39,499 bases of DNA. Source: a virus. Numbering within the stretch: the first letter of the stretch is position 1; every line of letters begins with the position of its first letter. Positions 2,105 to 39,499 of this stretch are shown piece after piece. Where the stretch lies: the IMG/VR virus record IMGVR_UViG_3300042914_001679, positions 1 through 39,499 of that record. The stretch is one strand, 5' to 3'. Under the pieces are notes generated by a model. The model saw only the letters and a list, made by a program, of their open reading frames with translations. It was not told the origin of the DNA and made no database searches. The position numbers and the translations under genes are program-made.

Positions 2105-3085
2105 TTAGGCGTTGCTGCCGAGGCTTGAAGCTGATTCGATGCGACGCAAGGCTTCCTGACGGAAGACCGAGTAGCCGACGAAGTGCTTCCAACCAACCGG
2201 GCGGAAACGCTGGAGGATGTCGGTCACCGTGCCGTACACGATGGTCGGCTGTGCGCCGTACTCGCCACCAAGGGAGATACCCTTGGCGAGAGCCTGACGA
2301 CCCATGATGAGGGTGCCGTAGACATCGATGGTGCCCGACGAAGACGAGTTGTTCGACGCATCCACGAACAGCGGCGCACGGGGCGACTCGATGAAGCGCA
2401 CCATGTCAATCATGCCGATTTCGCCGTTGTAGAGGCCCTCGCCACCGACGTACTTGTACGAGTCACGCCAGCCGCCAGCGTCCACGTTCGAACGGAAGTC
2501 GAACGAAACGTCGGGGTGGATGAAACCGATGTACGAACCGTTGATGGTCGGGACATTGGCCTTGCGCAACTGTGCGGCTGCCTTGCGGACATCGTTGATG
2601 TGCAAAACGTCGTCGGTGTTGACGGTCGTGCGGCTCGTCGGGTCGGTTGCACCGCCCGTTGCGTACAGCACGTTGTCACCAGCCTGGAGCACGTCGCGGC
2701 AGATGCTGTCAATCGACAGACCGGCGTTGAAGCCGACAGCGTTTGCTGCCACCGGGTCAACCGGGATGAACGACGAAGCGCGAAGCTTTGCGGTCGTGAC
2801 AGTTGCGTTGCCGTATTCCTTAAGGGTGACGGTGACCTGGCTGTCGCTCATGGCGACCGGCGTCACGTCCTCTGCTTCACCCAGTTCGGTCGTCGCGGCC
2901 GCGAGGTCAGCGAAAACGGTGAACTTGATGGATGCACCAGGGTTGGTGGCGTTGGTTGCCTGAACGTCTGCGAACTGGTCGTAGTACATTTCGGGACGGA
3001 GGGCGAAGTACGCCAACTTCTCAAAAGCAACCTGGTCGGTCGTGAGGTTAGCGGTGCCCGTTTCTGCTGCGTAATAATCAGCCAT
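2105..3085 (-). CDS. Major capsid protein, N4-gp56 family
   Basis: 326 aa. The opening (MADYYAAETGTANLTTDQV, then FALRPEMYYDQFADV), the TVTLKEYGNATVTT segment near residues 86-99, the IHPDVSFDFRSN region near 190 and the closing GWKHFVGYSVFRQEALRRIES match what I know of the N4-gp56-like HK97-fold capsid family. The protein would form the head shell. It follows the scaffold-like gene by 24 nt and is closed by a terminator. A consensus-like promoter lies upstream of the pair, consistent with high late expression. The family call is from memory of the sequence type; a profile search would settle it. Confidence 0.88.
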   Translation of the reverse strand: MADYYAAETGTANLTTDQVAFEKLAYFALRPEMYYDQFADVQATNATNPGASIKFTVFADLAAATTELGEAEDVTPVAMSDSQVTVTLKEYGNATVTTAKLRASSFIPVDPVAANAVGFNAGLSIDSICRDVLQAGDNVLYATGGATDPTSRTTVNTDDVLHINDVRKAAAQLRKANVPTINGSYIGFIHPDVSFDFRSNVDAGGWRDSYKYVGGEGLYNGEIGMIDMVRFIESPRAPLFVDASNNSSSSGTIDVYGTLIMGRQALAKGISLGGEYGAQPTIVYGTVTDILQRFRPVGWKHFVGYSVFRQEALRRIESASSLGSNA

Positions 3086-3109
3086 TTGGGTTATCTCTCT
3101 TTCTTGGAG

Positions 3110-3568
3110 TTAGTTTGCGGTGAGGTCAATTCCTTGTGCCGCAGCCTCCTGAAAGATGGCCATGAGTTCGCTTTCCGAATTGGCGTCAGCGATTCGTTGT
3201 TTCCACGACGGGGGTGTTGGGGCGTTTTCCGCTCCGACAGCAACCTTGTTAGAGGTTTGCCAGCCTTGCGTTTCACGCGGGTCCGTTACCGGTTGTGGCG
3301 TAATCAACTGTGCTTCTTCGGCAGCCATACGGATTGCTTCTGCTGAAAGTTCACCGTCGTAGCCTTTGACGAAGTATTTGAATTTCGCTTCGGCAGGGTC
3401 AATGCCTGCTTTTAGGAAACTTACTTCGCGTCTAGCTGTTTCGGCTTCCGCGAGCGCCTTTCGGATTTCGCGGTTTTCTTTCTCCAGTTGCTTCATCCTT
3501 GCCCTCACGGGGTTGGATTCGTTTGGCTGGTCGTCGTCCTCGTAGAAGTCATCTTCCAGATTTGACAT
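3110..3568 (-). CDS. Scaffold-like capsid assembly protein
   Basis: 152 aa from the ATG at 3568. It has an acidic N-terminus (MSNLEDDFYEDDDQPNES), then a heptad-like coiled coil (MKQLEKENREIRKALAEAE, about residues 24-45) and a polar, low-complexity C-terminal half. Acidic start, coiled coil and a position directly before the major capsid gene are the usual signature of phage scaffolding proteins, which guide shell assembly and leave before packaging. GGAGAG upstream of 3568 is a good ribosome site. A GTG or ATG further upstream (to 3592) would only add a few residues. No protease gene is seen nearby. Confidence 0.7.
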   Translation of the reverse strand: MSNLEDDFYEDDDQPNESNPVRARMKQLEKENREIRKALAEAETARREVSFLKAGIDPAEAKFKYFVKGYDGELSAEAIRMAAEEAQLITPQPVTDPRETQGWQTSNKVAVGAENAPTPPSWKQRIADANSESELMAIFQEAAAQGIDLTAN

Positions 3569-3824: not shown

Positions 3825-4657
3825 TCGCCAGCGGTTGAAAGTGCGGCCCGGCCGCCTGCTTGGAATTCGGCTACGCGCCGACGACGGCGGGTTGCGACGC
3901 GCTGTGCAGCTGAAACATTAGTTGCGAATTCTGCACCAATCTGTTCCATCCCACCGATACCGCCTTCGCCTGCTCCGGCTTCCCCTACGGTCGGCGTGTA
4001 GATTTCTTGTTCGCGGGCGATGCGTTGGAACCCTTCGCGGGCCCGTTCCTCACCTACGCCTGCCTGTACAAGTTGTTCGGCTTCGGCCGCACCCAGACTC
4101 ATACCGGCCTGCTGGCGGGCCTGTGCGGCCACCTGAGCGGCCTGTGTGCGGGTTCTGAGCACATCCGTGGCTTTGGTCGGGTCAAGGTAGTAGGCGGCCA
4201 AGTCGGCGGTATTCCATCCGTACAGGTTGGTCAGTTCGTCTCGGACGTTCTGTGGGGCGGCCAACGCGGCACGGAACCCAGCGTTCAAACGGTCGGCTAG
4301 TTCAACTGCGTCAATGTTTTTACCAATGAAGTCTGCGATTTCCTCATCGGTGTCGAAAAACCCTGCGGGCATACCGTTTGAGCGGAGGGTGCTGCGGAGG
4401 GCCGCCTCAACTGCAAGATATGTAGCAGGGTCGTATTCGGCTCGACCAGCTGCACGGCGAGCGGCGTTGCCTTTGCCGTTCGGCTCAAACCTATCCTTGT
4501 ATTCCTTGGTGTCCCGCAACTTGACTGTAAGTAATGGAATATTATTTTTCAGTGTCGGGTCGGCTTTGATAAGAACATCCGCTGCTGGGGTTAATGTCCC
4601 CAAACCGAATGATTCAAGAAGTGCTTGAAGTTCTTGGAGGCCGGTTGTCGCTGCCAT
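3821..4657 (-). CDS. Probable virion protein, function unknown
   Basis: 278 aa, mostly Ala/Glu/Arg-rich and predicted helical by eye (ELQALLESFGLGTLTPAADV; AAQVAAQARQQAGMSLGAAE near residue 175), with a Gly/Glu-rich hinge near 230 and a basic stretch RVATRRRRRVAEF near 255. There is no signal peptide or catalytic motif. It is the last of four adjoining genes between portal and capsid that overlap by a few bases (TAATG with the previous gene). Long helical proteins here in short-tailed phages are often internal or ejected virion proteins; that role is an inference from position. Confidence 0.65.
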   Translation of the reverse strand: MAATTGLQELQALLESFGLGTLTPAADVLIKADPTLKNNIPLLTVKLRDTKEYKDRFEPNGKGNAARRAAGRAEYDPATYLAVEAALRSTLRSNGMPAGFFDTDEEIADFIGKNIDAVELADRLNAGFRAALAAPQNVRDELTNLYGWNTADLAAYYLDPTKATDVLRTRTQAAQVAAQARQQAGMSLGAAEAEQLVQAGVGEERAREGFQRIAREQEIYTPTVGEAGAGEGGIGGMEQIGAEFATNVSAAQRVATRRRRRVAEFQAGGRAALSTAGE

Positions 4658-6441
4658 TACTGCACCTTCCCAAACATGCGGAGAATCGAAAGACCAACGT
4701 CGGTATATTCACGCTTGGCATTGTCGGTGGTTTGCCACTCGGGCAGCGAACGGATATAACGCTCCCATTCGTTCAGGTTCATCTGACGTGGCTTACCGGT
4801 CCCCTCTGGGTCATACGCAAAAGCCTTAGCATATTTGCTGTCGGTGAAGTTGATTTCACCTTCAGGCTTTTCAAGGTATTGAGCGGCCATCTGCCGGTAA
4901 TCGGCGGTGAGGGTACGAAGGTTGTAATCCTGGTCGATATAGTCGCCAAACACTCCGTAACGCATTTTGGCGCGGGCTTTCATGTCCCGCTTGAAACCGT
5001 CCTCGGTGATGTCACCAGAAATAATTCTCTTCGTGTAGTCGGAAAGTTCTTCGTCCGTCACATTGTCCAACATCAAATCGCCTGTCAGTTTTTTTGCCTT
5101 GGCGTATTGGGTGGTGGTCCTAATGTCGGTTTGCGGGGTGAGCGACCCGCGAGCCTCGGCTGCGGTTGCCTCTTTAACAAACTCCGCACCAATCGCCTTA
5201 TCTGCTTCAATATCTGTCCACCCGTATTTAAGTGCTTCATCAGCTAGGAACGAGTATGTGTTATCGCTCAACGAAAGATTTTTTGCTGTAGCCCGACCTT
5301 TTATGTAGTCAGTTTTGTCCGCAAGAGTATTTGCCCACTCGGGTGAAAGTTTGTTCTTTGTATAATTTCGCATCGATTCGGCGGTGTTGTTCCACCACGA
5401 TGTCTTATACAGTTCGTTAATGAAGCGTTGCTGACCGTCGGTTGTACTGGGGTCAATGTTCTTCTTGGACCAGTCAAGGAGGGTGCGGATTGAGTCATCG
5501 CTTTCATACAGTGAGGCAATCCAACCGTATTCGGCGTATGCATCTTTTAGCCATTCAACGGATGAAACTTCTGGTTCCATCGTGCCACCGCCACCAGCGC
5601 CACCGCCACCAGGGGTGGTAGCGCCCGTGCCACCTTTGATGCGCTTGCCACCCTTACCGCCTTTGCCACCGCCCGCACCAGTTGGGGGGCTAACAGGTGT
5701 TACATCCGGACCCGGCCCTGCCGCTTCCTCGGCCATGCGGAACTGACCAGCGGTAGAACCCCCAGCAACAGGTTTAGCTGGAGCGGTGGCCGCCATAGTT
5801 GTGGGGGCAACAGTCGGCATTTTGCCCTGAACAAAATCAGCGTAAATCTTCTCCCGTCGGGCGGTTTCCTCAGCCTGCTCTGGGGTCTGGTCAAGAACAT
5901 TACGGCGAGTAGCTGCGGCACCCTTACCAGACACAACAGCCCGCCACGTTCCACCAGCAACGGTCATGCGACCAAGCGAATCGGTGACGTTTTTCAACTT
6001 GTTGCTTGCGTCTTCCAACGCCCACTCACGGTCAGACCACTGAGTACGCTTCTTCGTCTCAGGGTCAACAAAACCCTGGTCAATCACGTCAACCAACTGG
6101 CGGTATGCAACAGCCAACTGGTACACATTGTCAAAAGTGTCTTCGCCTTGGGTAAGAGTATTAATCTTCGATACAATTTGGGAACGCTTCACCCGTTCCG
6201 GCACAATTGGACCTGACGGCGTCGCGGATGTGACACCAGCCTTGCCTGCCCTGATACCAGCTTCAAGTTGCGGGATGCTCGTCTCTCGAAGTTCCCGTTT
6301 CAAATCTTCTAATTCAACACGGGACAAAACCTTGTTTGAACCTGGCAATGCATAGCCGCCCTTTTGTGGGTCAAACTTTGCCTTCTCGGCATCTTTCAGT
6401 TGCTTTTTAAGGTCGGAAAGTTGTTTATTGAGGTCAGCCAC
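4657..6441 (-). CDS. Probable virion protein with glycine-rich linker
   Basis: 594 aa. A coiled-coil N-terminus (DLNKQLSDLKKQLKDAEKAK) is followed by a helical region to about residue 190. A long low-complexity linker rich in Gly, Lys, Ala and Thr spans roughly 225-290 (several GGKGGK-like runs), and a large polar C-terminal domain with many Tyr/Trp follows. The linker separates two folded halves, as in proteins that must unfold or pass through a channel. It overlaps its upstream neighbour by 8 nt. An internal or ejection-protein role is inferred from its place between the portal and capsid genes; I recognise no family. Confidence 0.65.
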   Translation of the reverse strand: MADLNKQLSDLKKQLKDAEKAKFDPQKGGYALPGSNKVLSRVELEDLKRELRETSIPQLEAGIRAGKAGVTSATPSGPIVPERVKRSQIVSKINTLTQGEDTFDNVYQLAVAYRQLVDVIDQGFVDPETKKRTQWSDREWALEDASNKLKNVTDSLGRMTVAGGTWRAVVSGKGAAATRRNVLDQTPEQAEETARREKIYADFVQGKMPTVAPTTMAATAPAKPVAGGSTAGQFRMAEEAAGPGPDVTPVSPPTGAGGGKGGKGGKRIKGGTGATTPGGGGAGGGGTMEPEVSSVEWLKDAYAEYGWIASLYESDDSIRTLLDWSKKNIDPSTTDGQQRFINELYKTSWWNNTAESMRNYTKNKLSPEWANTLADKTDYIKGRATAKNLSLSDNTYSFLADEALKYGWTDIEADKAIGAEFVKEATAAEARGSLTPQTDIRTTTQYAKAKKLTGDLMLDNVTDEELSDYTKRIISGDITEDGFKRDMKARAKMRYGVFGDYIDQDYNLRTLTADYRQMAAQYLEKPEGEINFTDSKYAKAFAYDPEGTGKPRQMNLNEWERYIRSLPEWQTTDNAKREYTDVGLSILRMFGKVQ

Positions 6442-7231: not shown

Positions 7232-10200
7232 CAGCCCAAATCTACCTCATACGACAATAGTTGCTCCCAAACCCGCCCAAAGTCCGGATAGGTTTCCGCA
7301 ACCACCTCACCATACTGATACAGGTATTCGCGGACAGGCGCGGCCTGCTTACCAGCAAGGGTTGTCAAACCAACTTCGTTAAGAGCCACCAAAGCTTCAT
7401 CACGTTTCGCCAAATACTTCAAGACGCCCTGCGCCACCGTATTGTCTGGCATGAACTCGGCGGCCTTGCGGAGACGCTCAATTTCATTCAAGCGTTCCTG
7501 CGATGTTTTGACCTCACCTTTACCGAAACCGGGGTATTTCTTGACAAGGAACTCACGATACCTACGGAGGTAGTCGCGTTGTGCATCGTTCGGATACGGC
7601 CCGGCCTTGTCGCGCACAGCCTTGTAGTAGGCAAAACCGATAGTCCGCTGCGCCTGGTCGGTTAGTTCTTGGGCGGAAACCCGTTCTTTAGCGCCAGTCT
7701 GAAGCTGTCGGAAGTACGCTTGTGGGCTGTACCGTCCGCCAGCAGGGGCGAAGTAACCAGCCACGTCAGAGTACCGTCGGAACAGTTCTTTATTTTCGGC
7801 TTGGAAACGTCCTGCTTCCTCGGTTGATTCCAACCCGCCAACAAGTGACCGTGATTTGCGGCCCAGATAGATAAACGCATCTTCACCGAATGTGTCGATG
7901 AACCTTTGGACCGCTGTGCCATACCCGCCGTTTGCGGTGTCGTTTTGCATGTCAAAGAATTCTTTTGTCAGCGATGTTGCCATAACATCACCTTGGTCGG
8001 TTGGGACCTTGAACTCGGGCGAGAATCTGGCGGGGCCGGTGAACTGGATGAAACCACGCATAATCGTCAGCACCTTGGCTTTTGATTTGGCGTCCTCACG
8101 GAGACGTTGCAGCTCGTCGTCATTCGACATGTCGTATTTGCCTGTTGCGGCAAGTGCCTGATATGTCTCCATGAACGTGTTGGCGAAGATGCTGTTGCCT
8201 TCTGGGGAGTCAGTCAGGCCGCTGATGACCTTTTGGGCCCATGACGGGGTAAAGGTCTTAAGGAACTGCTGGCCAACTTCTTCGCCCTTAAACGCCGTTT
8301 CACCGTATGGGAGCAAGAAGTTGCGGATTTCGTCAAACTGTGGGGAGTCCGGCAGTAGTGCTGATAGTCCCATTTGTCCGACTGGTCCGACACCTGGACG
8401 GAAATCGAAACCGAGGACAAGACCGGCGACTGGAGCCTGCATATTTGCTTGGATAGGTGCACCGCCACCGAAACGGTTGACGATAGCTCCGAGTGCTTTG
8501 TCTCCCATTGGGTAAGAAAATGACCATTGTCCGGATGTTGGGTCACGGTAGAAGAATCCGTTGCCGTCTTGGTCAGGGTCGGCAGAGATACCACCGTCAA
8601 CGATTTGGGTGGCCCGACGCAAGTTTGTCAGGTTGGGCATTTTGCCGAAACCGGTGTCAATGAAAGCGGTGCGGCCCAAAGCCTTGTAAAAGTCAATCTG
8701 CGCTTGGGCGAATGGCATCACAATTCTGGCGATGTCGGTCAGGTTGTTGCGTTCCGAAGCATCGTAAAGGAGGCGCTTCATGTCATCCAGCGCCATACCC
8801 TTTGCGTATGCATTTGCTTCGGAAAGTGACAGCGTGTTGTAGGCGGTTTTGTTGCCTTGCTGGTAGTCAAGGATGCGTTGCCAACGCTTGCCACCGTCCA
8901 CAGCCTTGCCGAACGACAGGGTTTTGATGTTGTCACCGACGTATTGCGCAGGAGTCAAACCGAGTTGTTTGGCGCGGGTGGTGATAGTTGATACAAGTTC
9001 GTCTAGTGCTTCTTGTTTGAGTGACGGGACAAGTTCGTCAACCCATGTGTAATAGCGCTGGCGGAACGCGGGGCTGCGTTCAAGGAACTTTGCGGGGCGA
9101 GAGTAGATGTGCCCGAAGAAACCGTTGACTGTTTCGTCCCAGCGTTGACGCAGATTGCTGTTCTTGTCTGCCCATTTAGGGTTGCGTCCTTCCATACCAA
9201 AAGCCGTTGGGAGGTTCTGGTCGTTGTATACGTCGTCCCGGCCAAGTAGTTTGCGGAGGTCGGCTGATACTTCGCCACGGTCAAATGCGAAAGGTCGGAT
9301 GATTGCTTCACCGGTTGTGGTGTCAATATCTACAACGCGGGCAACTCGGGTGCCTTTACCGGTAGCGCTCGGCACTTCCATGACGCGACCTACGTCATTG
9401 GCCGACAAACCTGATGCGACAAGGCTGATACGTTCAGCGGGAAGTTGTCCCGAGGCAACCACGCCGAGCAGGTCCCCACGCATGTTTGTCATGGTTTGGA
9501 CACGTTCACGAGATTCACGCAGATACAAGTTCATGTTTTGCTCGATGTTCAAGTCAACCGACTGTGTATCTGGAGCGAACCGTCCCGGGCGACCGTTTGC
9601 GCCAGGAATGTAAACGGCCCGGCCATTGATGTGTAGGTCGTAAATGTCTCTATACCAGTCGGCAGGGTTGACATCCTTGCCGATGGTGTCTTGGTATTTG
9701 GCGATGACCGCTGCGTCTGTTTTGCCGCCGTATCCGATGATGAGTTTGATTTCGTCATCGTCTGCACCAGCAGCAATCAGGCGGTCTACAAGGTCTGCGT
9801 TGAGTTTGCCGATTTGGTCGCCATGCCCAAGAACAACCTGTTCTTTGGGTTCAAAACCCTTGCGGGCGAGTTTCCAGTCGCCGTTACGTTCAGCCATGCG
9901 GAACCCGGCAACAGGGTCGTTCATGTATGCGGATTGTGCTACGCCGACCGCTTGGTCGTATTCTTTTTGTGTACGACGTGCCGCCACGTCTATCGGCAGG
10001 TCATCCCATGTGTTGCCTTCAATGTCGCCCGCACCCTTGGTTTTGGTGCTCCACGACATGTGTTGAAGCGGGTGCCGACCCAAACTTGTCACATCTCCCG
10101 TGTCGGAAAACGCTAGCCGCATCTGTCCTTCGAGAAGGTTGCGGACGCTGTATGCGCCAGTCATCAGAGTGGTGGTGCGCCATAGTTGGTTCAGGGAAGA

Positions 10201-14326: not shown

Positions 14327-16297
14327 CTATTGAAGCATCCACGTTGGGCGCCATTGGCGGGGCGGCATTTTGAACGTGGTCAGGTTCGGCAGGTTGAGCA
14401 CAGCCATCCAGAGGGACATGACGATGTCGGTGCCGTTCTTTTTGTCGCGGGTCCATTTGCACAGTTCGTCTACCGCTGCCAAGGTTTTCCAGTTGCCGCG
14501 CATCGACGGGAACCGCATTGAGCCGGTGCGGATAAGCGGCGGGAGTAGCGCCTCCACACCAAGGTTTTCGTCCAGTTTGTTGCGGGATGTGGTGTGGGGC
14601 ACAATGTTGACCATTTGGAGGGATTGCCAGCGGCGAACAAAGTCGTGCGCTAGAAGGAACCGTTGGGCTGCGTTGATTTCCACCACCCAATGCGATATCG
14701 GGTAGCCCATCTGGTAGGACCGGTTCTGCCAATCTTCCATCATCCCCGAATAGGTGCTGGTCATCGTGTTGTAACCCAGCAAATCTTCAGCTGTGAGTTT
14801 GGTTCGTTCAACATCAACGATGTGGTAGAGGTTCAAATCGGGCTGGTAGAGCATCCAGGTCAATGCCCAAAACTGGGTTGGGGACGGGTCTACTGAGGCG
14901 ATGGATATAACGGGCGGCGTTAAACCCTGCGGGATTTGCCCCGGTAGACGCTCATTATCGATACAGCCCTGATATAGAACACCGTCTTGACCCATGCCAC
15001 CTGTGAGCATTGTGCGGGAAACCAGATACGATTCGTCCGCTGCGTCTTCCTGCTGGTAAACAACCTTGAACGTGGTCGGGTTTGAGTACCGAATGTACGA
15101 CAGGTCTTTCCAAGAAAGACGTTTCGGGTCTAGGAGCGGCCCGTCAGGATACGGTCGCGCATTGATACTACGTGACTCTTTACCTGTGTCAAGCTCTTGA
15201 TAATAAGCTTTGTAGGTAATGTGGTGGTATTTTTGACGTTTGAGAGGTTCCGCTCCCAATCTTTCAGGGGATTCAATCGTTTCACCATCGTATTCATCTT
15301 CATCTTCATAGGTTACCTTAGACAAACAATGGGCGTACAGGTCGCCTGCACCGAGCCGCTGCCCAACAACCGCTAAAACCCCACCTGGGTCTACTCGGGC
15401 TTCGGCCATAGAGTCCCATCGTTCTAACAGTTTGTCTCGGGCGGTGGATTCGCGGGCGTTTTCGGTAGAGGCAACGTCGTCAAAGAGACATAGGTCGGCA
15501 CGGTGACCGATGAATTCGGCATCAATACCATACGCCCTGACGGTAGGTTCCTTGTTGTCAAGGTTACCTGGGATGTCTTGTTCCACAATGAACTCATCTG
15601 CCCTCCAAAGAGCACCCGTATTGGCCGGTTTGAACCTTCCGTAGTCGATAGACAGGCATCCTTTGGCGTTGACCGCCAACCCCTTCTTTACCAGCTCGGG
15701 GTCAGGTTCCAACGGGGAGGGTCGTTCCAAGGTTTCACGGATACGCCTCGAATACATTTTGGCAAGAGCCTGCGAAATAGAGCCGTAAAGGACACGGATG
15801 CCCCTGTTTCGGACGATGCACCAGACTGCAACATCGTGAAAGAGGGTTGATTTCCCTGCGCCCGGCGGACAGTTCAACACCAGGAACTCTTTTTCTTCAG
15901 ATTCCAGTAGTTGAACTATTTTGTATGCGGCTTCTACCTGCCACGGGGACGGCACACGACCCAGGTAGTAGCTGCGGAAAAAATCAAAATCTTCCAAACC
16001 CCTCTTGGCTTCAGGGGTAAGCCGGTCGTGGGGAATAGCTGGCGGCAATTCAAGCGACTCCGACAACAACCGCATCGACTCGGCTTGCACCCCACCCTGT
16101 TTCGCCCGATGTTTCGATGTTTCCAACTGGGCCAACTCAAGCCGTGCCTGTGTTTCTTTCCGTTTCTTTTCCCAGTTCCCCGCAGTGTTGGGGTGGATAC
16201 CTGCGATACGTGCCGCATCTTCCTGCGACATGCCAGCCTGACGTGACGCCCAATAGCGGGCCTTGTCTGCGTCAGAAATAATTCTTCGAGTACCCAT
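14327..16297 (-). CDS. terL: Terminase large subunit with N-terminal helix-turn-helix
   Basis: 656 aa from the ATG at 16297 (begins MGTRRIISDADKARYW); an ATG at 16321 would add 8 residues. Residues about 22-45 (MSQEDAARIAGIHPNTAGNW) look like a helix-turn-helix of the kind found in small terminase subunits. The ATPase follows: Walker A CPPGAGKST at about 143-151 and Walker B LCLFDD at about 269-274. The RNase H-like nuclease is suggested by SIASVDPSPTQFW and later HWVVEINAAQRF. The enzyme cuts concatemers and drives DNA into the head. No separate small subunit is visible, so the HTH may serve DNA recognition. No Shine-Dalgarno is seen; TATGCT lies 12 nt upstream of the ATG, so a very short leader is possible. 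Confidence 0.9.
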   Translation of the reverse strand: MGTRRIISDADKARYWASRQAGMSQEDAARIAGIHPNTAGNWEKKRKETQARLELAQLETSKHRAKQGGVQAESMRLLSESLELPPAIPHDRLTPEAKRGLEDFDFFRSYYLGRVPSPWQVEAAYKIVQLLESEEKEFLVLNCPPGAGKSTLFHDVAVWCIVRNRGIRVLYGSISQALAKMYSRRIRETLERPSPLEPDPELVKKGLAVNAKGCLSIDYGRFKPANTGALWRADEFIVEQDIPGNLDNKEPTVRAYGIDAEFIGHRADLCLFDDVASTENARESTARDKLLERWDSMAEARVDPGGVLAVVGQRLGAGDLYAHCLSKVTYEDEDEYDGETIESPERLGAEPLKRQKYHHITYKAYYQELDTGKESRSINARPYPDGPLLDPKRLSWKDLSYIRYSNPTTFKVVYQQEDAADESYLVSRTMLTGGMGQDGVLYQGCIDNERLPGQIPQGLTPPVISIASVDPSPTQFWALTWMLYQPDLNLYHIVDVERTKLTAEDLLGYNTMTSTYSGMMEDWQNRSYQMGYPISHWVVEINAAQRFLLAHDFVRRWQSLQMVNIVPHTTSRNKLDENLGVEALLPPLIRTGSMRFPSMRGNWKTLAAVDELCKWTRDKKNGTDIVMSLWMAVLNLPNLTTFKMPPRQWRPTWMLQ

Positions 16298-16547
16298 GAA
16301 CTGTTGACAAGCATAAACCATTTGGTATCATCAGCGCCACAACCCAACGAATACATGACCCGCACTCCACACTCAGAAGCACAGGAAGTGGAAAGGGTAA
16401 ACGTGGCCGGAAACGGGGACTGACCCCCTGTGCAAAACGCCCCGCAAGGACCCTGAGCGAAACAAAGAACGGAAAGCGGCGGGATACGTAGGGTGAGAAA
16501 AAGACTAGAAAACGGTGTCGGCTAAAAGCATTTGGCTACGGCCACCG

Positions 16548-16591
16548 GTAAACATTTTGTTTACGAAGCGTGGGGGGAGCTAAAGCTTCGT
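16548..16591. repeat. Two overlapping inverted repeats
   Basis: GTAAAC (16548-16553), a 5-nt loop, then GTTTAC (16559-16564). The second stem, ACGAAGC (16563-16569) with GCTTCGT (16585-16591), shares two bases with the first. Alternating stems of this kind can be protein-binding or switchable structures. Confidence 0.5.
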
Positions 16592-16712
16592 GGCAGTCCA
16601 GCCGGTTCGGCAAGTTCCGTCCGCTGCGCGAACGGCTGCCGCCCTCGCTAACGCTCGGTTGCCCACAGAGCCTCAAAGCAGCCGCACGAACAGGTCGCCC
16701 CCAGGCGGGGCA

Positions 16713-16741
16713 TCTTTTTCTTTTTACCCTTTTTCTTTTTC
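16713..16741. repeat. Pyrimidine tract with repeated CTTTTTCTTTTT
   Basis: CTTTTTCTTTTT occurs twice, separated by ACC, giving 29 bases almost purely of C and T. It is an easily melted, strand-asymmetric tract about 60 bp from the DnaA-box-like sites, as expected of a DNA-unwinding element. It could also simply be a weak transcription stop. Confidence 0.4.
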
Positions 16742-16800
16742 AACAAGTACACAGACCAGTCGGGTGTCACAACCCACACAGGGGTTGCCTGCCGCCAACT

Positions 16801-16821
16801 TTATCCACAAACATATCCACA
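16801..16821. promoter_or_regulatory. Pair of DnaA-box-like sites
   Basis: TTATCCACA (16801-16809) equals the classical bacterial DnaA box, and ATATCCACA (16813-16821) differs by one base, in the same orientation, 12 bp start to start. DnaA is the host initiator. A phage without its own replication proteins could use such sites to recruit the host helicase. Confidence 0.5.
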
Positions 16822-16831
16822 GCCAACCCAA

Positions 16832-16852
16832 GGTATCTCGAAACGAGATACC
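16832..16852. promoter_or_regulatory. Perfect 21-bp palindromic site
   Basis: GGTATCTCG-AAA-CGAGATACC: two perfect 9-bp arms around a 3-nt centre, 10 bp from the DnaA-box-like pair. No U-tract follows on either strand, so it is more like a dimeric protein-binding site than a terminator. The binding protein is unknown. Confidence 0.5.
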
Positions 16853-17072
16853 CACCAGCAAGGGCTAGTGTGAACACCTACAGAAACGCTAATACGTATA
16901 TGGCGGGGGGGATGGCGCGGCACTACCCCGGTCGTGTGTGCGTGTGTCGCGGGCACGCGGGGGGTCATCGGGCCCCGGCCGCCGTCACCCCGAAAAGCTG
17001 CACCGGCCAACCGGCCACCCCCACCCCCCCTGCACCACCGGCAAGACATGAAAAGAACCGGCGGCATCGGCC

Positions 17073-17153
17073 ACAAGTATTTAGCGGGGGGGTTCGCCTA
17101 CTTGTTGGGGGTGCTTGTCTTTTACTTGTCTACTTGTGACATGAGTCACTTGT
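17073..17153. promoter_or_regulatory. Array of ACTTGT hexamers, possible operator or iterons
   Basis: ACTTGT starts at 17100, 17124, 17132 and 17148 on plus (spacings 24, 8 and 16, all multiples of 8). There is one inverted copy (ACAAGT) at 17073-17078 and a variant GCTTGT at 17113. GTGAC-ATGA-GTCAC (17136-17149) overlaps the last two. The array ends 8 bp before the -35-like box of the cassette promoter, so it is well placed to control it. Confidence 0.5.
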
Positions 17154-17160
17154 TTTGCTC

Positions 17161-17189
17161 TTGACTTTGGCGCGGGTTGGATTCATGAT
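17161..17189 (+). promoter_or_regulatory. Probable promoter of the plus-strand cassette
   Basis: TTGACT (17161-17166), a 17-nt spacer, then CATGAT (17184-17189). The -35 matches in five of six positions; the -10 is weaker. It lies 45 bp before the first cassette gene and directly after the ACTTGT array. Confidence 0.5.
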
Positions 17190-17234: not shown

Positions 17235-17444
17235 GTGGCACGTCGTAGTTTTGTATTTTGGTGCGATAGGATGGATGCGGCCGCTGCGGGTCGTATTGAG
17301 AATGAGTGTGACGGCTACGCGGCCGTGCATGTCACGTATCAATCGGAGGAGCTGCGGGGGATTCTTGGGGGGGACTATTGCCAGGCTTGCGCGGATGCTC
17401 TCGCGGGTGATGGTCGTTTAATCCTTAGCGTTAAGGGTATCTAG
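17235..17444 (+). CDS. Small Cys-containing cassette protein, unknown
   Basis: 69 aa from a GTG at 17235 with AGGGGG 6 nt upstream. It begins MARRSFVFWCDRMDAAAAGR and has Cys at 10, 25, 49 and 52, the last two as CxxC in DYCQACADAL. The four cysteines could bind one metal. It is the first gene of the plus-strand cassette and is followed by a GC hairpin. Codons are strongly G/C-ending (GCG, GGG), as throughout the cassette. No family recognised. Confidence 0.6.
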   Translation: MARRSFVFWCDRMDAAAAGRIENECDGYAAVHVTYQSEELRGILGGDYCQACADALAGDGRLILSVKGI

Positions 17445-17460
17445 TTGGCGTTAGGTGGCG

Positions 17461-17482
17461 TCCCCGCTCCGGCGGGGGTGCC
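17461..17482 (+). repeat. GC hairpin, first of two identical copies
   Basis: CCCCGC-TCCG-GCGGGG with flanks, identical over 22 bp to 18461-18482. It begins 17 nt after a stop codon. A 6-bp GC stem with a tetraloop and no U-tract suggests a transcription pause, attenuator or processing signal rather than a classical terminator. Confidence 0.55.
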
Positions 17483-17553
17483 GCCCGGTGCCCCTGGCCG
17501 CGTGTCGGGGGTAGCGGGCGGCAAGGGGCCGCAAACTAGAGATAGGGGAATTT

Positions 17554-17835
17554 ATGGATAGGGAAGAGTTAGGGGCGCGGGCGTTGCGTCTCGCGTATCG
17601 GGTGCAGGGGTTGGCCGCTAACGCGGTCGGTGCGGCCGGTGAATTCCGGAGCGAGCACGGCCGGACCCCGGAAGAAATTACCGGGGACTATGTTTCGGAC
17701 CTTGTCGCGGAATTGAGCGACACGGTGCGCAAATTGTCGGCGGTAGTGCGGGAGCTTGACAAGGTGCGGGCCGAATTGGATGCGGCTAGTTTTGCGGGTA
17801 TCGCGGCGGCCGTGGAACAAAGGGGCCGCAAGTAA
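17554..17835 (+). CDS. Cassette protein with coiled-coil character, unknown
   Basis: 93 aa, starting MDREELGARALRLAYRVQGL, acidic and helical. A C-terminal heptad-like stretch (LVAELSDTVRKLSAVVRELD, near residues 50-70) suggests coiled-coil dimerisation. AGGGGA precedes the ATG by 5 nt. Its stop overlaps the ATG of the ArdC-like gene (TAATG), so the two are probably co-translated. It may be a partner of that protein; this is only inferred from coupling. Confidence 0.65.
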   Translation: MDREELGARALRLAYRVQGLAANAVGAAGEFRSEHGRTPEEITGDYVSDLVAELSDTVRKLSAVVRELDKVRAELDAASFAGIAAAVEQRGRK

Positions 17836-18248
17836 TGGCGCGGCGGGCATACACTGAGACGGAGCGGGCGGCGGTCCGGGAGCATCGGGCCGCCCTGGCG
17901 GCGGCCGCTAAAGCGGCGGACGAATCCCGGCCGGGTGACGTGGCGCGGGCGGTCGAAATTCTGGGGCACTATTCCCGACGTAACGCGGCGCTAATTTTGG
18001 TGCAAGCGGAGCAACGCGGCCAGGCTATCCCGCAAGCGGTGGCCGGGTTCCATGAGTGGCGCAAGCTGGGCCGGACCGTCCGCAAGGGTGCTAAGGGTTA
18101 CGCCATTTGGGCGCCCATCGTGGGCAAGAAAGGCCAGGGCGGCGAAGATGGCGCGACGGATGACGGGACCCCGCGCGGGTTTACGATTCGGTTCGTCTTC
18201 GACGTGGCCGACACGGACCCGGCGACGGTCCCGGCGGGGGTGGCGTAA
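17835..18248 (+). CDS. ArdC-type ssDNA-binding antirestriction domain protein
   Basis: 137 aa. After a helical start, the stretch HYSRRNAALILVQAEQRGQA, then VAGFHEWRKLGRTVRKGAKG, YAIWAPIV and FVFDVADT (roughly residues 49-130) reproduces the ArdC N-terminal ssDNA-binding domain. In that family the Asn/Gln/Trp/Arg/Lys-rich core contacts single-stranded DNA and shields incoming DNA from restriction. Full ArdC proteins carry a C-terminal metalloprotease domain (HExxH), which is absent here; the protein ends just after FDVADTDP. It is thus a stand-alone binding domain or a truncated relic. It is coupled both upstream and downstream (TAATG). Confidence 0.8.
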   Translation: MARRAYTETERAAVREHRAALAAAAKAADESRPGDVARAVEILGHYSRRNAALILVQAEQRGQAIPQAVAGFHEWRKLGRTVRKGAKGYAIWAPIVGKKGQGGEDGATDDGTPRGFTIRFVFDVADTDPATVPAGVA

Positions 18249-18448
18249 TGGGTAGGCGACGGACAGAACCTAATCTCGCGGCCATTCTGGCGGCGTATCA
18301 ACGGGAGGCGCGGCGGTTGGATAGGGCCGCTAAAGAATTGGGGACCGACACGGCCGCCGGGCGGGAGCTTTTGACTATGGCGCGTAATGTCCGGCGGTGC
18401 GCCCTGGCGGCGGCTACTGATGCGGCGCGGGAGGGGGTGACGGCGTAA
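18248..18448 (+). CDS. Small helical cassette protein, unknown
   Basis: 66 aa, Ala/Arg-rich, starting MGRRRTEPNLAAILAAYQRE and apparently all helical. The ATG overlaps the stop of the ArdC-like gene (TAATG). It occupies the position where ArdC's protease domain would be but shows none of its motifs. It is followed after 12 nt by the second GC hairpin, so these three genes appear to form one transcript unit. Function unknown. Confidence 0.6.
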   Translation: MGRRRTEPNLAAILAAYQREARRLDRAAKELGTDTAAGRELLTMARNVRRCALAAATDAAREGVTA

Positions 18449-18460
18449 AGGTTGGGGCGT

Positions 18461-18482
18461 TCCCCGCTCCGGCGGGGGTGCC
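18461..18482 (+). repeat. GC hairpin, second of two identical copies
   Basis: Same 22 bp as 17461-17482, exactly 1000 bp further on, again just after a stop codon (12 nt). Repetition of the same hairpin after two transcription-unit ends argues for a shared role in mRNA 3' ends. Confidence 0.55.
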
Positions 18483-18569
18483 TTGCCCATTCTGCATTAG
18501 TTCGTTAGTGTGGGGCGGGTAGGGCATAGCTCGGAGCTAGTTCTACGGCGGTCTAAGGGGGCCGCAACT

Positions 18570-19190
18570 ATGGAAACAATGACGAAACTAGGCGGGCGCG
18601 AGCTTATCGCGGGCCGCGAATGGATACGGAGCACGACACTAGACGCGGCCGGTGAGCCCTGGCACGTGTCGAAAAGTGGCCAAGTGTTGCCGGTGGTGGT
18701 AAAGGTGCGCGGCGAGCTTGTGCACCTGGCCGGAAATGCGCGGCCCTATTTCTCCGTAACGGGGGAAGTGTATAACCCGCGCTCGCGCCGTAACGGCGGG
18801 GACGGGTGCATTATGGGCGGGTGTATCCACGACATAGCGGTGCACTATTTCCCGGCGGTGGCTCCGTTGGTGGCGGTGCACTTGGCGGACGATAACGGGG
18901 TGCCGATGCATGCGGCCGCTAATGCGGCCTACTGGGCGGGCCTTACGAAATGGCAACCGGCGGACCTGGCGACACTTGCGCGACACTTGCGCGTAAATGA
19001 TGCCGAGGCGGCCGAGCTCGCGGGTTGGGTATGGAATTTTTACGGGGATAACCCCGACGCTTTCGACGCGGTGACTACCCCGGCGGCGGCTATGTTGGCG
19101 GCGTTCGATGAATTTGGGCTGCCGGAGCGGTGGCAGACAGACGCGGCGCAGGCGCTCGCGGTTCTTCGTCGTGAGGCGGTGCAGGCATGA
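18570..19190 (+). CDS. Conserved actinobacterial mobile-element-type protein, unknown function
   Basis: 206 aa from the ATG at 18570, chosen for its AAGGGGG site; a GTG at 18510 would add 20 residues. Recognisable stretches are YFSVTGEVYNPRSRR, MGGCIHDIAVHYFP and DNGVPMHAAANAAYW (roughly residues 65-140). I have seen this pattern in hypothetical proteins of actinobacterial plasmids and phages. The Cys/His-rich centre (GGCIHD, PMHA) looks like a possible metal or active site, but no reaction is known to me. The C-terminal half is helical. Composition is GC-rich like its neighbours. The stop overlaps the next start. Confidence 0.6.
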   Translation: METMTKLGGRELIAGREWIRSTTLDAAGEPWHVSKSGQVLPVVVKVRGELVHLAGNARPYFSVTGEVYNPRSRRNGGDGCIMGGCIHDIAVHYFPAVAPLVAVHLADDNGVPMHAAANAAYWAGLTKWQPADLATLARHLRVNDAEAAELAGWVWNFYGDNPDAFDAVTTPAAAMLAAFDEFGLPERWQTDAAQALAVLRREAVQA

Positions 19191-19369
19191 GTCGGGCGGC
19201 CGACCGTCTTCGGGCCGCGACGTATGCGGCAAGCTTTATCGGCGGCGTCATTGTTGCCGGTACGGGGTTCGATACGTGGAACGCGGGCGATAGTTTCGGC
19301 GCGTTCTATCTTGTGGCGGGGTTGGGTCTGGCCTTTATCGGCTGCACCTATCGGGCGGGCGGTGAATGA
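19187..19369 (+). CDS. Small membrane protein, two predicted spans
   Basis: 60 aa with two hydrophobic stretches: ATYAASFIGGVIVAGTGF (about 11-28) and FGAFYLVAGLGLAFIGC (about 37-53), separated by a polar turn (DTWNAGDS). A two-span hairpin of this size is seen in holins and in small phage membrane effectors. Its ATG overlaps the previous stop (ATGA). It lies in the early-looking cassette far from the lysis genes, so a holin role is less likely than a host-membrane function. Confidence 0.65.
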   Translation: MSRAADRLRAATYAASFIGGVIVAGTGFDTWNAGDSFGAFYLVAGLGLAFIGCTYRAGGE

Positions 19370-19650
19370 TGGCGCGGACGGTAGCGGAAATTCCCGACGG
19401 GTCCGACGCGCTCGCGGGCGCGTTTCTGGCGGCGGATTATTACGGCGGACAATTTACGGCGCTTTACGCGGTCGCTAGTTCGGGTTCTCTGGAGCTTTAT
19501 TCGGGCGAGGGGTTGGACCGGCTGCGGCGCGAATTGGTAGCGGCTGTCGCTATTGCGGAACAATTGCCGGAGTCTGACGACGGCTATTTGACCGACGCGG
19601 AAAATTTGGGCGCGTTCCTGGCCTGGGTTGAAGCTAACGCGGGCGATTAG
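19366..19650 (+). CDS. Acidic cassette protein, unknown
   Basis: 94 aa, strongly acidic, beginning MMARTVAEIPDGSDALAGAF; the start may be 19366 or the next ATG at 19369. It has a small helical C-terminal half (LDRLRRELVAAVAIAEQLPE). The start overlaps the previous stop as ATGATG. A low-pI small protein in an antirestriction cassette could be a DNA mimic, but no fold can be assigned. Confidence 0.6.
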   Translation: MMARTVAEIPDGSDALAGAFLAADYYGGQFTALYAVASSGSLELYSGEGLDRLRRELVAAVAIAEQLPESDDGYLTDAENLGAFLAWVEANAGD

Positions 19651-19744
19651 CCCGCCGGGTGCGGCCGCGTGGCCCTCGCCCCGTTCGATACGGGGGCACC
19701 CGCTCCGCCTAATTCGGGGCGGTTCAACATAGAAGGGTAAAGGT

Positions 19745-20152
19745 ATGTCTATTTTCGACACGGCTAAACAAGGGGTAGGGGAGCGGCGCGTAGTGTTTAC
19801 GTGGTCCGGACCGGCTACGGAGGAATACGCGGGCAACGTGTGGGGGGAGCGGGTGAAGCTTTCTATCACGCACAATAAGGACCGCAAGCGGTTCGAAGCT
19901 ACCGTTTCGCGGTGCCAGTGGAGCCAGGGCGACGGCTACGTGATGGAACGTCACGCGGTTTTTGTTGATGCTTTCGTGACGTTCCACACGGCCCCGTGTG
20001 CGCGTTACAGTGCAGGCCGGTTCTCCGAGTTTGTGGCGGAGACGAAGACTAAGGCGGAAATGTATGCGGCTCCGGCGGTAGTTGTTGACGGGTCAGTAAA
20101 GGCCCGTGAGCTTTTCCGTAAGGCTGCCGAGCTGGCCGTTCCCGTCGCGTGA
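19745..20152 (+). CDS. Cassette protein, unknown
   Basis: 135 aa, beginning MSIFDTAKQGVGERRVVFTW, with AGAAGGG as ribosome site. It looks mainly beta in its first two thirds (VVFTWSG, VKLSITHNKDRKRFEATVSR) with a helical Lys/Glu-rich end. No recognised motif or membrane span. The 94-bp gap before it contains GC-rich inverted elements but not the repeated 22-bp hairpin, so it may start a new unit. It overlaps the next gene by 4 nt. Confidence 0.6.
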   Translation: MSIFDTAKQGVGERRVVFTWSGPATEEYAGNVWGERVKLSITHNKDRKRFEATVSRCQWSQGDGYVMERHAVFVDAFVTFHTAPCARYSAGRFSEFVAETKTKAEMYAAPAVVVDGSVKARELFRKAAELAVPVA

Positions 20153-20454
20153 CTTGGGTACGTTTTAACCCGCACGGCGACGTAGCTTTCATCGTTCGAC
20201 GGGCCGGGAAGCGGTGCGGGGTGCTCTTTGATAGGCCGCCCCGTTACCGCGCCCCGCGTCATACGTTCGCCGTTTACCGCCAGCTAGGTGCCGGGCGTTG
20301 GTACTGGCAAGGTCCGGACCGTGCATCGGGTAACGGTTGGGGGCAGGTTAGTTCCGCTCATTACTACACGTCCCGAGATGATGCTGCGGCCGCGATGGTG
20401 CGGCATCATATTGTTCCGACAGTTTTTTCGGTTGGGGTGGTGCAGGTTACGTAG
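20149..20454 (+). CDS. Basic cassette protein, unknown
   Basis: 101 aa from a GTG overlapping the preceding stop (GTGA). It begins MTWVRFNPHGDVAFIVRRAG and is rich in Arg, Tyr and Trp (RRAGKRCGVLFDRPPRYRAP; GAGRWYWQGP), suggesting a small basic beta protein that may bind nucleic acid. It is the last gene of the plus-strand cassette and is followed 24 nt later by a strong terminator. No family recognised. Confidence 0.6.
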   Translation: MTWVRFNPHGDVAFIVRRAGKRCGVLFDRPPRYRAPRHTFAVYRQLGAGRWYWQGPDRASGNGWGQVSSAHYYTSRDDAAAAMVRHHIVPTVFSVGVVQVT

Positions 20455-36458: not shown

Positions 36459-37466
36459 TTATGCTCCTACATCCGTCGTAATAATCGCCGTGAACTTCGA
36501 ATCGTTCATCGGGTCAGTAGACACAGCAGAGTTTACCCATTGACTACTAGCCGTACTGTAAACCAACGCCTGACCATTCGCCGGAGTGCCGGTAATCGTC
36601 ACATCCGTCAAACCATCAAGCGTCTGCGAACCTTGAGGACCTTGAGGACCTTGAGCACCCTGCGGACCTGAAGCACCAGTTAAACCAACAGCGCCTTGCG
36701 GTCCCTGAAAACCAATAGGACCCTGAGCGCCCTGCGCACCTTGAGGACCTTGGAATCCTTGAGGACCTTGTGCTCCTTGAGCGCCTTGAGCACCCTGCGC
36801 ACCTGTATCCCCCTGAGGTCCTTGGAAACCCTGCGGGCCCTGAGCGCCTTGAGTGCCCTGTGCGCCCTGTGCGCCCTGCGGACCAGTATCACCCTGCGGG
36901 CCTTGCGTACCCTGAAACCCTTGAGGACCCTGAGCACCCTGGGCACCCTGAGGTCCCGTATCACCTTGCGGTCCTTGTGTACCCTGAGGACCCTGTGAAC
37001 CCTGAGGACCAGTATCCCCCTGAGGACCTTGCGCTCCTTGAACACCTGTTGCACCTTGAGGTCCCTGAGCGCCGGTCGGTCCCTGAGCACCTTGAGCGCC
37101 TTGTGCACCAGTTGCTCCTTGAGGACCCGTATCTCCCTGTGGACCTTGGAAACCCTGAGGACCCTGTGAGCCTTGCGCTCCGGTCGCTCCTTGCGCTCCC
37201 TGCGCACCCGTGGCCCCCTGAGCACCAGTAGCGCCCTGTGGGCCTTGCGTACCCTGCGGGCCTTGCGTACCCTGTGCACCTTGAGCTCCTTGAGCTCCTT
37301 GAACACCAACAGGGCCGACATTTTCCGAACCGACAACAGTTATTGCGGTGACCGCCGCAACATCAATATTTGAAACGGTTCGCGTCAACGTCACATAGAC
37401 CGCGTTAGCGGACGATACCCCTACCGTTTCCTCGGAACGGTCAACCGTAACCGAAACCGATGCCAC
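36459..37466 (-). CDS. Collagen-like tail-fibre protein
   Basis: 335 aa from a GTG in TAGTG with the previous stop. A 50-residue N-terminal beta domain ([20 protein letters not shown]) is followed by about 77 uninterrupted Gly-x-y triplets (51-281, mostly GPQ, GAQ, GTQ), then a C-terminal part [30 protein letters not shown]. The Gly-x-y run forms a triple-helical rod, giving a long trimeric fibre shaft. The terminal 'LDGLTDVTI' module is common in phage collagen fibres and may nucleate trimerisation. The Gln-rich y position suits bacterial collagen, which lacks hydroxyproline. The coding repeats are a recombination hot spot. Confidence 0.85.
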
Positions 37467-37807
37467 TACGCTCTCGTAACGTCAGCCAGCACAACCACCG
37501 TTCCCGCCAAAACGGTTGTCACGACAGTCCCGTTCGTTTCCTGCAAATCCCAGTAATAGTTGCCGGGGGAAAGCAGCGCGGTGGATGTAGCAGAAAACAC
37601 GACAGTCATCACACCGTTCGCGCCATCAGTCACGGTACAGGTTGCTGTCGCGGAAACTGTTGAAATGTCGGGGTTGGTGCGGAGCTGCGCGGCGTAGGTG
37701 CGACCTGTAATGTTGACAGGTGTGGACCCGTCGGTGGTCATTGTGACCTGAACGGTTTCTGTGTCGCCTCGAACAAACGTGAGGTTTTGTGTTCCGGGTG
37801 CAGCCAT
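37466..37807 (-). CDS. Beta-sandwich tail protein (BppU-like N-terminal domain)
   Basis: 113 aa, beginning [20 protein letters not shown], continuing [20 protein letters not shown] and [20 protein letters not shown]. 'F.RGDT.....t...G.P.nitG....a.ir....' is the pattern of the BppU-type baseplate/upper-fibre domain in many phages. It probably links the collagen-like fibre encoded next to the tail. The overlap with that gene is TAGTG. Confidence 0.7.
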
Positions 37808-38071: not shown

Positions 38072-38217
38072 TGGTTTGCCGCCCAAGCATTATCAACAAG
38101 GTTCGGGTACTTGCGACCAGCCTTCGCCGCCCGAGCCTTTGCAGCCTTCTTCTGGCTGTCAGTCAACTTGGTTGATTTCTTGTTCGGGTTCTTTTTGTCC
38201 CAAAACTGCTTTTTCAC
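38068..38217 (-). CDS. 49-aa Lys-rich conserved phage protein
   Basis: Reads MKKQFWDKKNPNKKSTKLTD, then SQKKAAKARAAKAGRKYPNL and VDNAWAANQ. The 'KLT..QK..AKARA..AGR.YPNLVDN' pattern is frequent in aquatic phages next to tail or head genes. The GTG start overlaps the GT4-like stop (GTGA), and its own stop overlaps the next GTG. Very basic, probably nucleic-acid or virion associated. Confidence 0.7.
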   Translation of the reverse strand: MKKQFWDKKNPNKKSTKLTDSQKKAAKARAAKAGRKYPNLVDNAWAANQ

Positions 38218-39293
38218 GATGGCTCCATTTCAACAGCACCAGAATCAAACAATACCTGATAGGCCCCCGGGCTGATATCGGCAACCTGCCCGGTAGCTAT
38301 CACATATCTGTTATTGGCAATCGTAGCGTTGACGGGTCGTTTGGCTCGGACCCGGACGGTGACTGTGGGAATCTCCCACTTTGGGTTGTCAAGCAGTTCG
38401 CCCTTAGGGACAGCTGCTACAAGTTTTTTGGCTGCTTCCGCCCAAGAGAATTTTGCTGTCCCAGCTGGGCGTTTTCGGGGCAGGCGCATGTCGTATGCGT
38501 CCTGCATTGCCAGTTTCAACTTTTGCAGATTGGGTTCGTCCCACTGGCCGACAGTTTGGGCTTTCGATTTGCCGCATGGGACAGTCCATTGGGCAAGGTG
38601 CATAAAGTCCCTTTGGCCTGTGGATTCAGAGACGATGGTGGGAATACCCATAGCGATTGCCTGTAGGGGCATCAGGCCGAATCCTTCGCCTCTGGTTGCC
38701 GCCACGAAACAATCCGCCTGGTCGTACCAGTCTCGTTGGGTTTCTTTGTTCATCCAGTTGCGATGAAAGACGATGTTGGGGTGTTTGACGGTTTCTACGT
38801 CGAAGGCGTGTGGGGCTGCTTTGATGTGTAGTTCGGCATCGGGCAGGTTGAGTTCGGTGAAGGCTTTGACAACAATGTCAAGACCTTTACGGAACCATAG
38901 GGAGCCTCCTGCGTGGAATCTGAACGGGCCGTCCGCATTGCGGCCTTTGGATTTCCAGAATGCCAAATCAACCCCGAGTGGTACACAAGTGGTATTCGGG
39001 TGGTATTTAGAAAATAGTTCTAGATTGTGTTCGCAGGGTACAAGAATCTGGTCGAACTGGCTGAACCACGGGTGCATGAACTGTGGCATCGTGTCGGTTT
39101 CCCACATCGTGAACAGGGCACGGTGTTGGCCCTTGAACCAGCCTTTCACAGAAATCGGCATCTGCATATAGACGTTCACCGAAGCGTGTTTGTCAAACAC
39201 AACATCTTTCGGGGCGTGGGTTACGAAACCGTCAAGCATTGACCCGTAGCCAACCTTGATGTCCCCGACCCCATTCCAAGACTGGTAATTCAT
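38214..39293 (-). CDS. GT4-like glycosyltransferase, second allele, complete
   Basis: 359 aa from the ATG at 39293 (MNYQSWNGVGDIKVGYGSML). The donor half shows FRFHAGGSLWFRKG near 125-137 and RGEGFGLMPLQAIAMG near 201-216, the usual GT-B layout, but E203-x7-Q211 replaces the E-x7-E motif, as in the allele at the window start. The C-terminal part (TVRVRAKRPVNATIANNRYV) is a small beta domain. A longer frame to 39434 exists but the ATG matches the other copy and lies 7 nt from a -10-like box. It transfers a sugar to an unknown acceptor, presumably on virion or host surface. It starts the minus-strand tail block. Confidence 0.82.
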   Translation of the reverse strand: MNYQSWNGVGDIKVGYGSMLDGFVTHAPKDVVFDKHASVNVYMQMPISVKGWFKGQHRALFTMWETDTMPQFMHPWFSQFDQILVPCEHNLELFSKYHPNTTCVPLGVDLAFWKSKGRNADGPFRFHAGGSLWFRKGLDIVVKAFTELNLPDAELHIKAAPHAFDVETVKHPNIVFHRNWMNKETQRDWYDQADCFVAATRGEGFGLMPLQAIAMGIPTIVSESTGQRDFMHLAQWTVPCGKSKAQTVGQWDEPNLQKLKLAMQDAYDMRLPRKRPAGTAKFSWAEAAKKLVAAVPKGELLDNPKWEIPTVTVRVRAKRPVNATIANNRYVIATGQVADISPGAYQVLFDSGAVEMEPS

Positions 39294-39299
39294 GCTGGA

Positions 39300-39306
39300 T
39301 ACACTA
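39300..39306. promoter_or_regulatory. Overlapping back-to-back -10 boxes, second allele
   Basis: TACACT (39300-39305) is 7 nt before the ATG at 39313; TAGTGT on the opposite strand (complement of 39301-39306) is 7 nt before the ATG at 39293. The arrangement equals that at 668-674 although several spacer bases differ, so the geometry is conserved. Confidence 0.5.
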
Positions 39307-39312
39307 GCCCCT

Positions 39313-39499
39313 ATGCCCACCCTGTCGATATACATTCCGACATGGAACCGGCAGCATCTTTTGGACAGGTTACTGAAAAGCATTGAACCGCAACTGTGCG
39401 ACGAAGTTGACGTTTTTGTTTCGGTCAACCACAAACCCGATTACGACCTGCCGGATTGGGTGAGCCGCCGACAAACCAGAATCAATGTTGGTGGAGATG
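39313..39499 (+). CDS. GT2-like glycosyltransferase, second allele, N-terminus only
   Basis: 62 codons of the same protein as 681-1418, cut by the window end. It begins MPTLSIYIPTWNRQHLLDRL and differs from the first allele at residue 2 (Pro for Ser) and 18 (Asp for Asn). From 39373 on it is base-for-base identical to 741-867. If the ends are joined as a circle through that repeat, this reading continues into the complete gene at 868-1418. Confidence 0.85.
   Translation, partial: MPTLSIYIPTWNRQHLLDRLLKSIEPQLCDEVDVFVSVNHKPDYDLPDWVSRRQTRINVGGD
39373..39499. repeat. 127-bp exact direct repeat, second copy
   Basis: Identical to 741-867 and ending exactly at the last base of the window. The preceding 60 bases already differ from their counterpart at several positions, so the exact match begins at 39373 and not earlier. 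Confidence 0.9.

Follow-up and report, generated by a model that had tools for sequence, protein, structure and literature searches.

The window analysed here is the whole 39,499-bp virus record IMGVR_UViG_3300042914_001679. It carries a large terminase gene (TerL, with an N-terminal HTH) on the minus strand at 14327–16300 and, divergent from it on the plus strand, a predicted gene for a structured noncoding RNA at 16304–16740. The gene opens with a predicted promoter at 16304–16331 (TTGACA-16 nt-TATCAT, matching the consensus at 11 of 12 positions and with TG extending the -10), from which transcription is predicted to start at about 16338; relatives have TG-TANNNT at the equivalent place. 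Conservation in relatives marks a structured RNA of subtype I at 16349–16588 (plus strand), the conserved part being about 250 nucleotides long, and drops to background right after GGGGGGAGC (~16588 in window coordinates). The RNA core lies at 16509–16592 (plus strand) and scored 78.7 bits with our covariance model R1. On the same strand, 16697–16740 resembles an intrinsic terminator, with a GCCCC/GGGGC hairpin and then a double T tract; the T tracts are kept in L002, L004, L034 and other relatives. Across the terminase relatives in IMG/VR, the RNA stretch appeared as a conserved noncoding block with no conserved ORF. The RNA matched no family among the Rfam 15 covariance models at the gathering cut-off or at E ≤ 10, the minimum-free-energy z-score of the single window sequence was 0.01 and so uninformative, and we found no earlier description of the RNA in the open-access literature.

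A preliminary description of this DNA had proposed a candidate replication origin at 16548–16852, and all of the motifs it flagged were present. The GTAAAC and GTTTAC arms (16548–16553 and 16559–16564) do form a stem, kept by compensatory change in relatives, but it is a predicted hairpin of the RNA rather than a DNA element of an origin. The ACGAAGC and GCTTCGT arms (16563–16569 and 16585–16591), also listed as an origin feature, showed no conservation in relatives and probably arose by chance. The pyrimidine double tract, with CTTTTTCTTTTT at 16714 and 16729, is kept in near relatives; however, it lies 3' of the GC hairpin and is thus part of the terminator, not an unwinding element. The perfect 9+3+9 palindrome GGTATCTCG-AAA-CGAGATACC (16832–16852, no strand) may be real, since L004 has a palindrome at the same place with changed yet complementary arms (GGTATCAAC-TTC-GTTGATACC). 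By our own estimate, ~1.7 perfect 9-bp palindromes with a loop of at most 10 would be expected by chance in 39.5 kb.

The core comprises a helix (CGGU/ACCG), the GTAAAC/GTTTAC hairpin and a pseudoknot (GGCT/AGCT), and it contains a G6 run inside GTGGGGGGAGC, where conservation ends. Covariation was measured by model-free corrected mutual information in 79 non-redundant core sequences. The top column pairs (45-69, 39-74, 5-43, 47-67, 44-70, 46-68, and 48-66) were all canonical, and the pseudoknot pair 33-84 ranked slightly lower. The hairpin corresponds to columns 44-48/66-70, and the single covarying pair 39-74 was C-G, G-C, U-A or U-G in 79 of 79 sequences. For the core structure, 86.0% of cells were paired compared with 61.9% after shuffling, and covariation was 0.605 compared with 0.182, a value reached in none of 500 shuffles; sliding the register of the structure lowered covariation to 0.07–0.19. 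Further covarying helices were found in the 5' domain of subtype II, where nearly all of 43 sequences pair at the helix positions and an alignment-based long-range contact between columns 19 and 84 is U-A in 38 sequences and C-G in five. Covariation this strong identifies the conserved object as a structured RNA, its predicted pseudoknots included.

Scanning IMG/VR viral contigs with the motif GGTGTCGGCT...ACGGCNACC, we found the motif together with a downstream GTGGGGG in at least 147 loci on at least ~140 different contigs; a few exact pattern matches inside coding DNA were recognised and left out. The RNA is divergent from the terminase gene in at least 128 loci, and it is shared by a second phage group whose terminase and portal are of another kind. 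The exact pattern did not find the RNA in 85,000 cellular genomes, in which five pattern matches were all coding DNA with R1 scores at chance level, and blastn of the RNA region against isolated phages and plasmids gave no credible match. A close isolate was likewise not found, as terminase and portal searches matched only distant relatives or nothing. The hosts are very likely actinobacteria, because WhiB is encoded in all 22 of the RNA-bearing records.

Near-complete RNA-bearing genomes are ~35–41 kb long, four of them with the end overlaps of a circular assembly, and each has one RNA copy except G019. In this 79,213-bp contig (L199–L202), two phage types with two RNA copies are joined, and a repeated 112-aa gene common to both types lies at 37466–37804 and 78799–79137; the contig is either a chimeric assembly or a real joint. 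Many IMG/VR contigs end within a few hundred bp 3' of the RNA core, which suggests a hypervariable stretch that breaks assembly. Reading contig ends as physical genome ends was unsupported, since several genomes are circular assemblies. The window contig itself probably broke at a repeat, because a divergent pair of glycosyltransferase genes recurs in similar form at its two ends (1–1418 and 38214–39499).

The preliminary description had noted recombination enzymes but no recognisable polymerase, primase or helicase, and this absence extended to the relatives: DnaB, DNA polymerase A, DNA polymerase B, Prim-Pol, DnaG zinc ribbon, and D5_N each exceeded the family cut-off in none of the 22 RNA-bearing records, some of which may be fragments. 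The conserved DNA genes are those for a YqaJ/RecE-like exonuclease, present in all 17 genomes compared, and for an annealing protein, present in 13 of these. Two distant relatives that have been isolated, Shocker and DS1, do encode a DNA polymerase (and Shocker a primase/helicase in addition), and R1 found no RNA in either. It is possible that an initiator protein too divergent to recognise is encoded, as many early genes have no known function.

The position of the RNA is taken by a protein gene in some terminase relatives. A replication initiation protein (phrog_270) was encoded in none of the 22 RNA-bearing records and in 10 of 10 RNA-less terminase relatives, a count that includes initiator frames cut by contig ends (G023, G027). 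The seven annotated initiator ORFs lie 187–403 bp upstream of the terminase gene, divergent from it as the RNA is; they matched phrog_270 at 1e-22 to 1e-49, and HTH_36 exceeded the Pfam cut-off in six of the seven, with L046 just under it. None of the terminase loci had both the RNA and a phrog_270 initiator. On the terminase tree with midpoint rooting, a single branch separates the initiator-bearing phages from the others, and they fall within the RNA-bearing ones; the change from RNA to initiator thus maps to a single event, and the genomes in the exclusivity count are not independent observations. The most divergent terminase relative, L048, has neither the initiator nor the core at 7263–7823; it keeps the promoter and the 5' domain motif and has two TATCCACA 12 bp apart.

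A second, independent swap was found in the other phage group: L262, with a TerL 97% identical to that of L261, has a different conserved RNA at the same place, ending 3' in GGGGGGGGAAGGGG with a G8 run. We observed this second RNA, denoted RNA-III, upstream of the terminase gene in L262, L263, L264, L269, L270, L296, and L299 (e.g., at 2984–3524 on the minus strand of L264), in the slot that the window-type RNA has in close relatives. RNA-III is unrelated to the window RNA and had no credible match in Rfam; its hairpins look compensated, and it has a G7–8 run at its end, followed by DnaA boxes. As close relatives hold an initiation gene or another RNA at this place and no replication enzyme was found, the proposal of an origin at 16548–16852 was probably right in kind, although most of the features listed for it belong to the noncoding RNA gene or to its terminator and are not DnaA-binding or unwinding elements.

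The same exchange bears on whether the RNA might instead work in trans, in regulation or host takeover, with its proximity to a replication module being incidental. An independent gene with its own promoter, a complex pseudoknotted fold and high conservation would all suit such a role. Moreover, exclusivity is not universal, since the distant 64-kb phage L239 has, within 4495–5580, a divergent RNA copy (42.8 bits) and, immediately after it, a replication-initiation-like ORF (phrog_16167) and a weak helicase-loader match, so that the RNA and an initiator-like gene coexist there. However, we regard a trans-acting function as unlikely, given that the RNA is swapped at one place for an initiator gene and for another RNA, as replication modules are.

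Downstream of the RNA gene, the plus strand has a DnaA-box-like pair, TTATCCACA at 16801–16809 and ATATCCACA at 16813–16821, 12 bp apart from start to start. The first is the only occurrence of TTATCCACA in the 39.5-kb window and appeared in nine of 5000 dinucleotide shuffles of the 246-bp segment, and two TATCCACA appeared in none of the 5000. For relatives, 90 non-redundant segments from the RNA core to the next element were compared with 300 shuffles. TTNTNCACA was observed 27 times (4.9 expected), seven segments had two or more copies (0.2 expected), and TTRTCCACA was observed 10 times (0.4 expected); none of the 300 shuffles reached the observed counts. The 12-bp spacing recurs in the window, L008, L013, L112, and L048. 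However, only 18 of the 90 segments contained any TTNTNCACA, and these counts point to the predicted DnaA boxes as a genuine, if optional, feature of the locus. Recruitment of host DnaA, which the preliminary description had offered as the explanation of replication, is accordingly compatible with the enrichment of boxes 3' of the RNA but cannot be the general mechanism.

A DnaA-dependent, oriC-like origin, for which the RNA would be merely an activating transcript, would account for the box pair beyond chance in the window, the enrichment in relatives, far above chance, and the recurring spacing. However, 72 of the 90 RNA-bearing segments lack TTNTNCACA, and it is the RNA structure that is conserved, not the boxes. 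The GC-skew switch, also named in the preliminary description as a check, was absent: in 10 near-complete genomes, genome-wide GC skew had no consistent minimum or switch at the RNA. We therefore consider an oriC-like origin improbable.

A second conserved DNA element, with an AT-rich TAATACGTATA, a G run and CGCGGCACTACCCCGGTCG, is located at 16872–16938 on the plus strand. It occurs once per genome, ~200–480 bp downstream of the RNA, and ends in GCCTCGGCAGACCCCCAGTTG in most relatives. Both skews flip locally at this element, with GC skew at about -0.4 before it and +0.2 after it. The element is kept upstream of the terminase gene in the RNA-less G025, is weaker in the RNA-less G024, and differs in the other terminase group. 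We rejected it as part of the RNA origin in our main interpretation because it is kept in G024 and G025; given that its distribution tracks the terminase lineage, RNA-less relatives included, it may be a packaging (cos/pac) site.

Further downstream, a CRP-like palindrome GTGACATGAGTCAC (within 17136–17189) lies just 5' of an early promoter-like site (TTGACT-17-CATGAT, 17161–17189), and similar GTGAC..GTCAC palindromes occur in L100 and L141. The plus-strand early genes at 17235–20454 include one for a protein with an ArdC N-terminal domain and have 61–67% GC, compared with ~53% elsewhere; this block looks recently acquired. Since the RNA is upstream of these genes, it might act on the rightward early operon as a leader or antitermination element. 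This is very unlikely, as the RNA has its own terminator, the early genes have their own promoter-like site ~420 bp further on, and the RNA is swapped for an initiator gene. Least probable of all is a packaging RNA of the phi29 pRNA kind, likewise a structured phage RNA near packaging genes: the RNA is the divergent neighbour of TerL in at least 128 loci, but it is found with two different, unrelated terminase/portal families and is exchanged while the terminase is unchanged, being absent from the relative with the 97% identical terminase.

We consider it likely that the intergenic region containing the RNA gene at 16304–16740 is the phage replication origin, and that this origin depends on the RNA, probably as a ColE1-like primer, with optional help from DnaA. 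We infer the replication role from the slot of the RNA, which holds an initiator gene or another RNA in relatives. An RNA-dependent origin most simply explains why RNA and initiator replace each other at one position in phages that encode no recognisable replication enzymes. In ColE1, RNA II is a promoter-driven structured RNA with a G-rich stretch that works without an initiator protein and becomes a primer through a persistent hybrid and RNase H cleavage. By analogy, host RNA polymerase would transcribe the phage RNA, whose 5' domain and pseudoknotted core would fold while emerging; the conserved G6 run in GTGGGGGGAGC would pair stably with the template strand as an rG:dC hybrid, and host DNA polymerase would extend the transcript, still annealed, as a primer. 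In some lineages, that of the window included, the downstream DnaA boxes may bind DnaA and help to load the host replisome. The primer step and its hybrid are suggested by the observation that conservation stops 3' at a G run in each of two unrelated RNAs, and by the likeness to RNA II, which extends to reliance on the host. There is no homology to RNA II (no Rfam match), and, unlike it, the window RNA has an intrinsic terminator, which counts against the primer model and needs explaining.

The RNA gene, its conserved structure, the exclusivity with the initiator among terminase relatives, the absence of the replication enzymes searched for and the DnaA-box enrichment support an origin. Against it, there is no genome-wide skew minimum, and the strong local flip sits at the second element, which RNA-less phages also have.

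Among described systems, the RNA-based prophage origins of cluster A mycobacteriophages (RedRock, Alma, Gladiator, LadyBird, and Et2Brutus; Wetzel et al. 2020, PMC7157519) come closest to the locus in the window. Both are from actinobacteriophages, with a noncoding RNA of a few hundred nucleotides at the replication locus (in the window with a predicted promoter, conserved structure and no conserved ORF) and an initiator protein in its stead in a minority of relatives, L239 being the exception to exclusivity here. Homology was not detectable, as R1 run with filters off gave no credible sequence or structure match to the ori regions of RedRock, Alma, and Gladiator. In cluster A, the RNA origin lies beside parABS and works for the extrachromosomal prophage, and the phages can grow lytically without it (PMC7157519). 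In contrast, the window-type RNA would serve phage growth itself, since these phages lack the replication enzymes searched for.

We give about even chances to a broader proposal, that these RNAs represent a new class of pseudoknotted RNA initiators, in which one slot is contested by at least two unrelated RNAs (the window RNA and RNA-III) and by one protein initiator, in whole actinobacterial phage lineages without an initiation protein of their own. If true, this would account for the replication of 39-kb genomes without a recognisable polymerase, primase, helicase or initiator, and would offer a testable RNA fold, sharply bounded 3' by a G run, as well as compact, protein-free origins for use in actinobacterial vectors. 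Many uncultured phages would then replicate without a replication protein of their own, started by a folded RNA, and RNA-primed replication would become a common phage strategy, beyond ColE1 plasmids and a few mycobacterial prophages.
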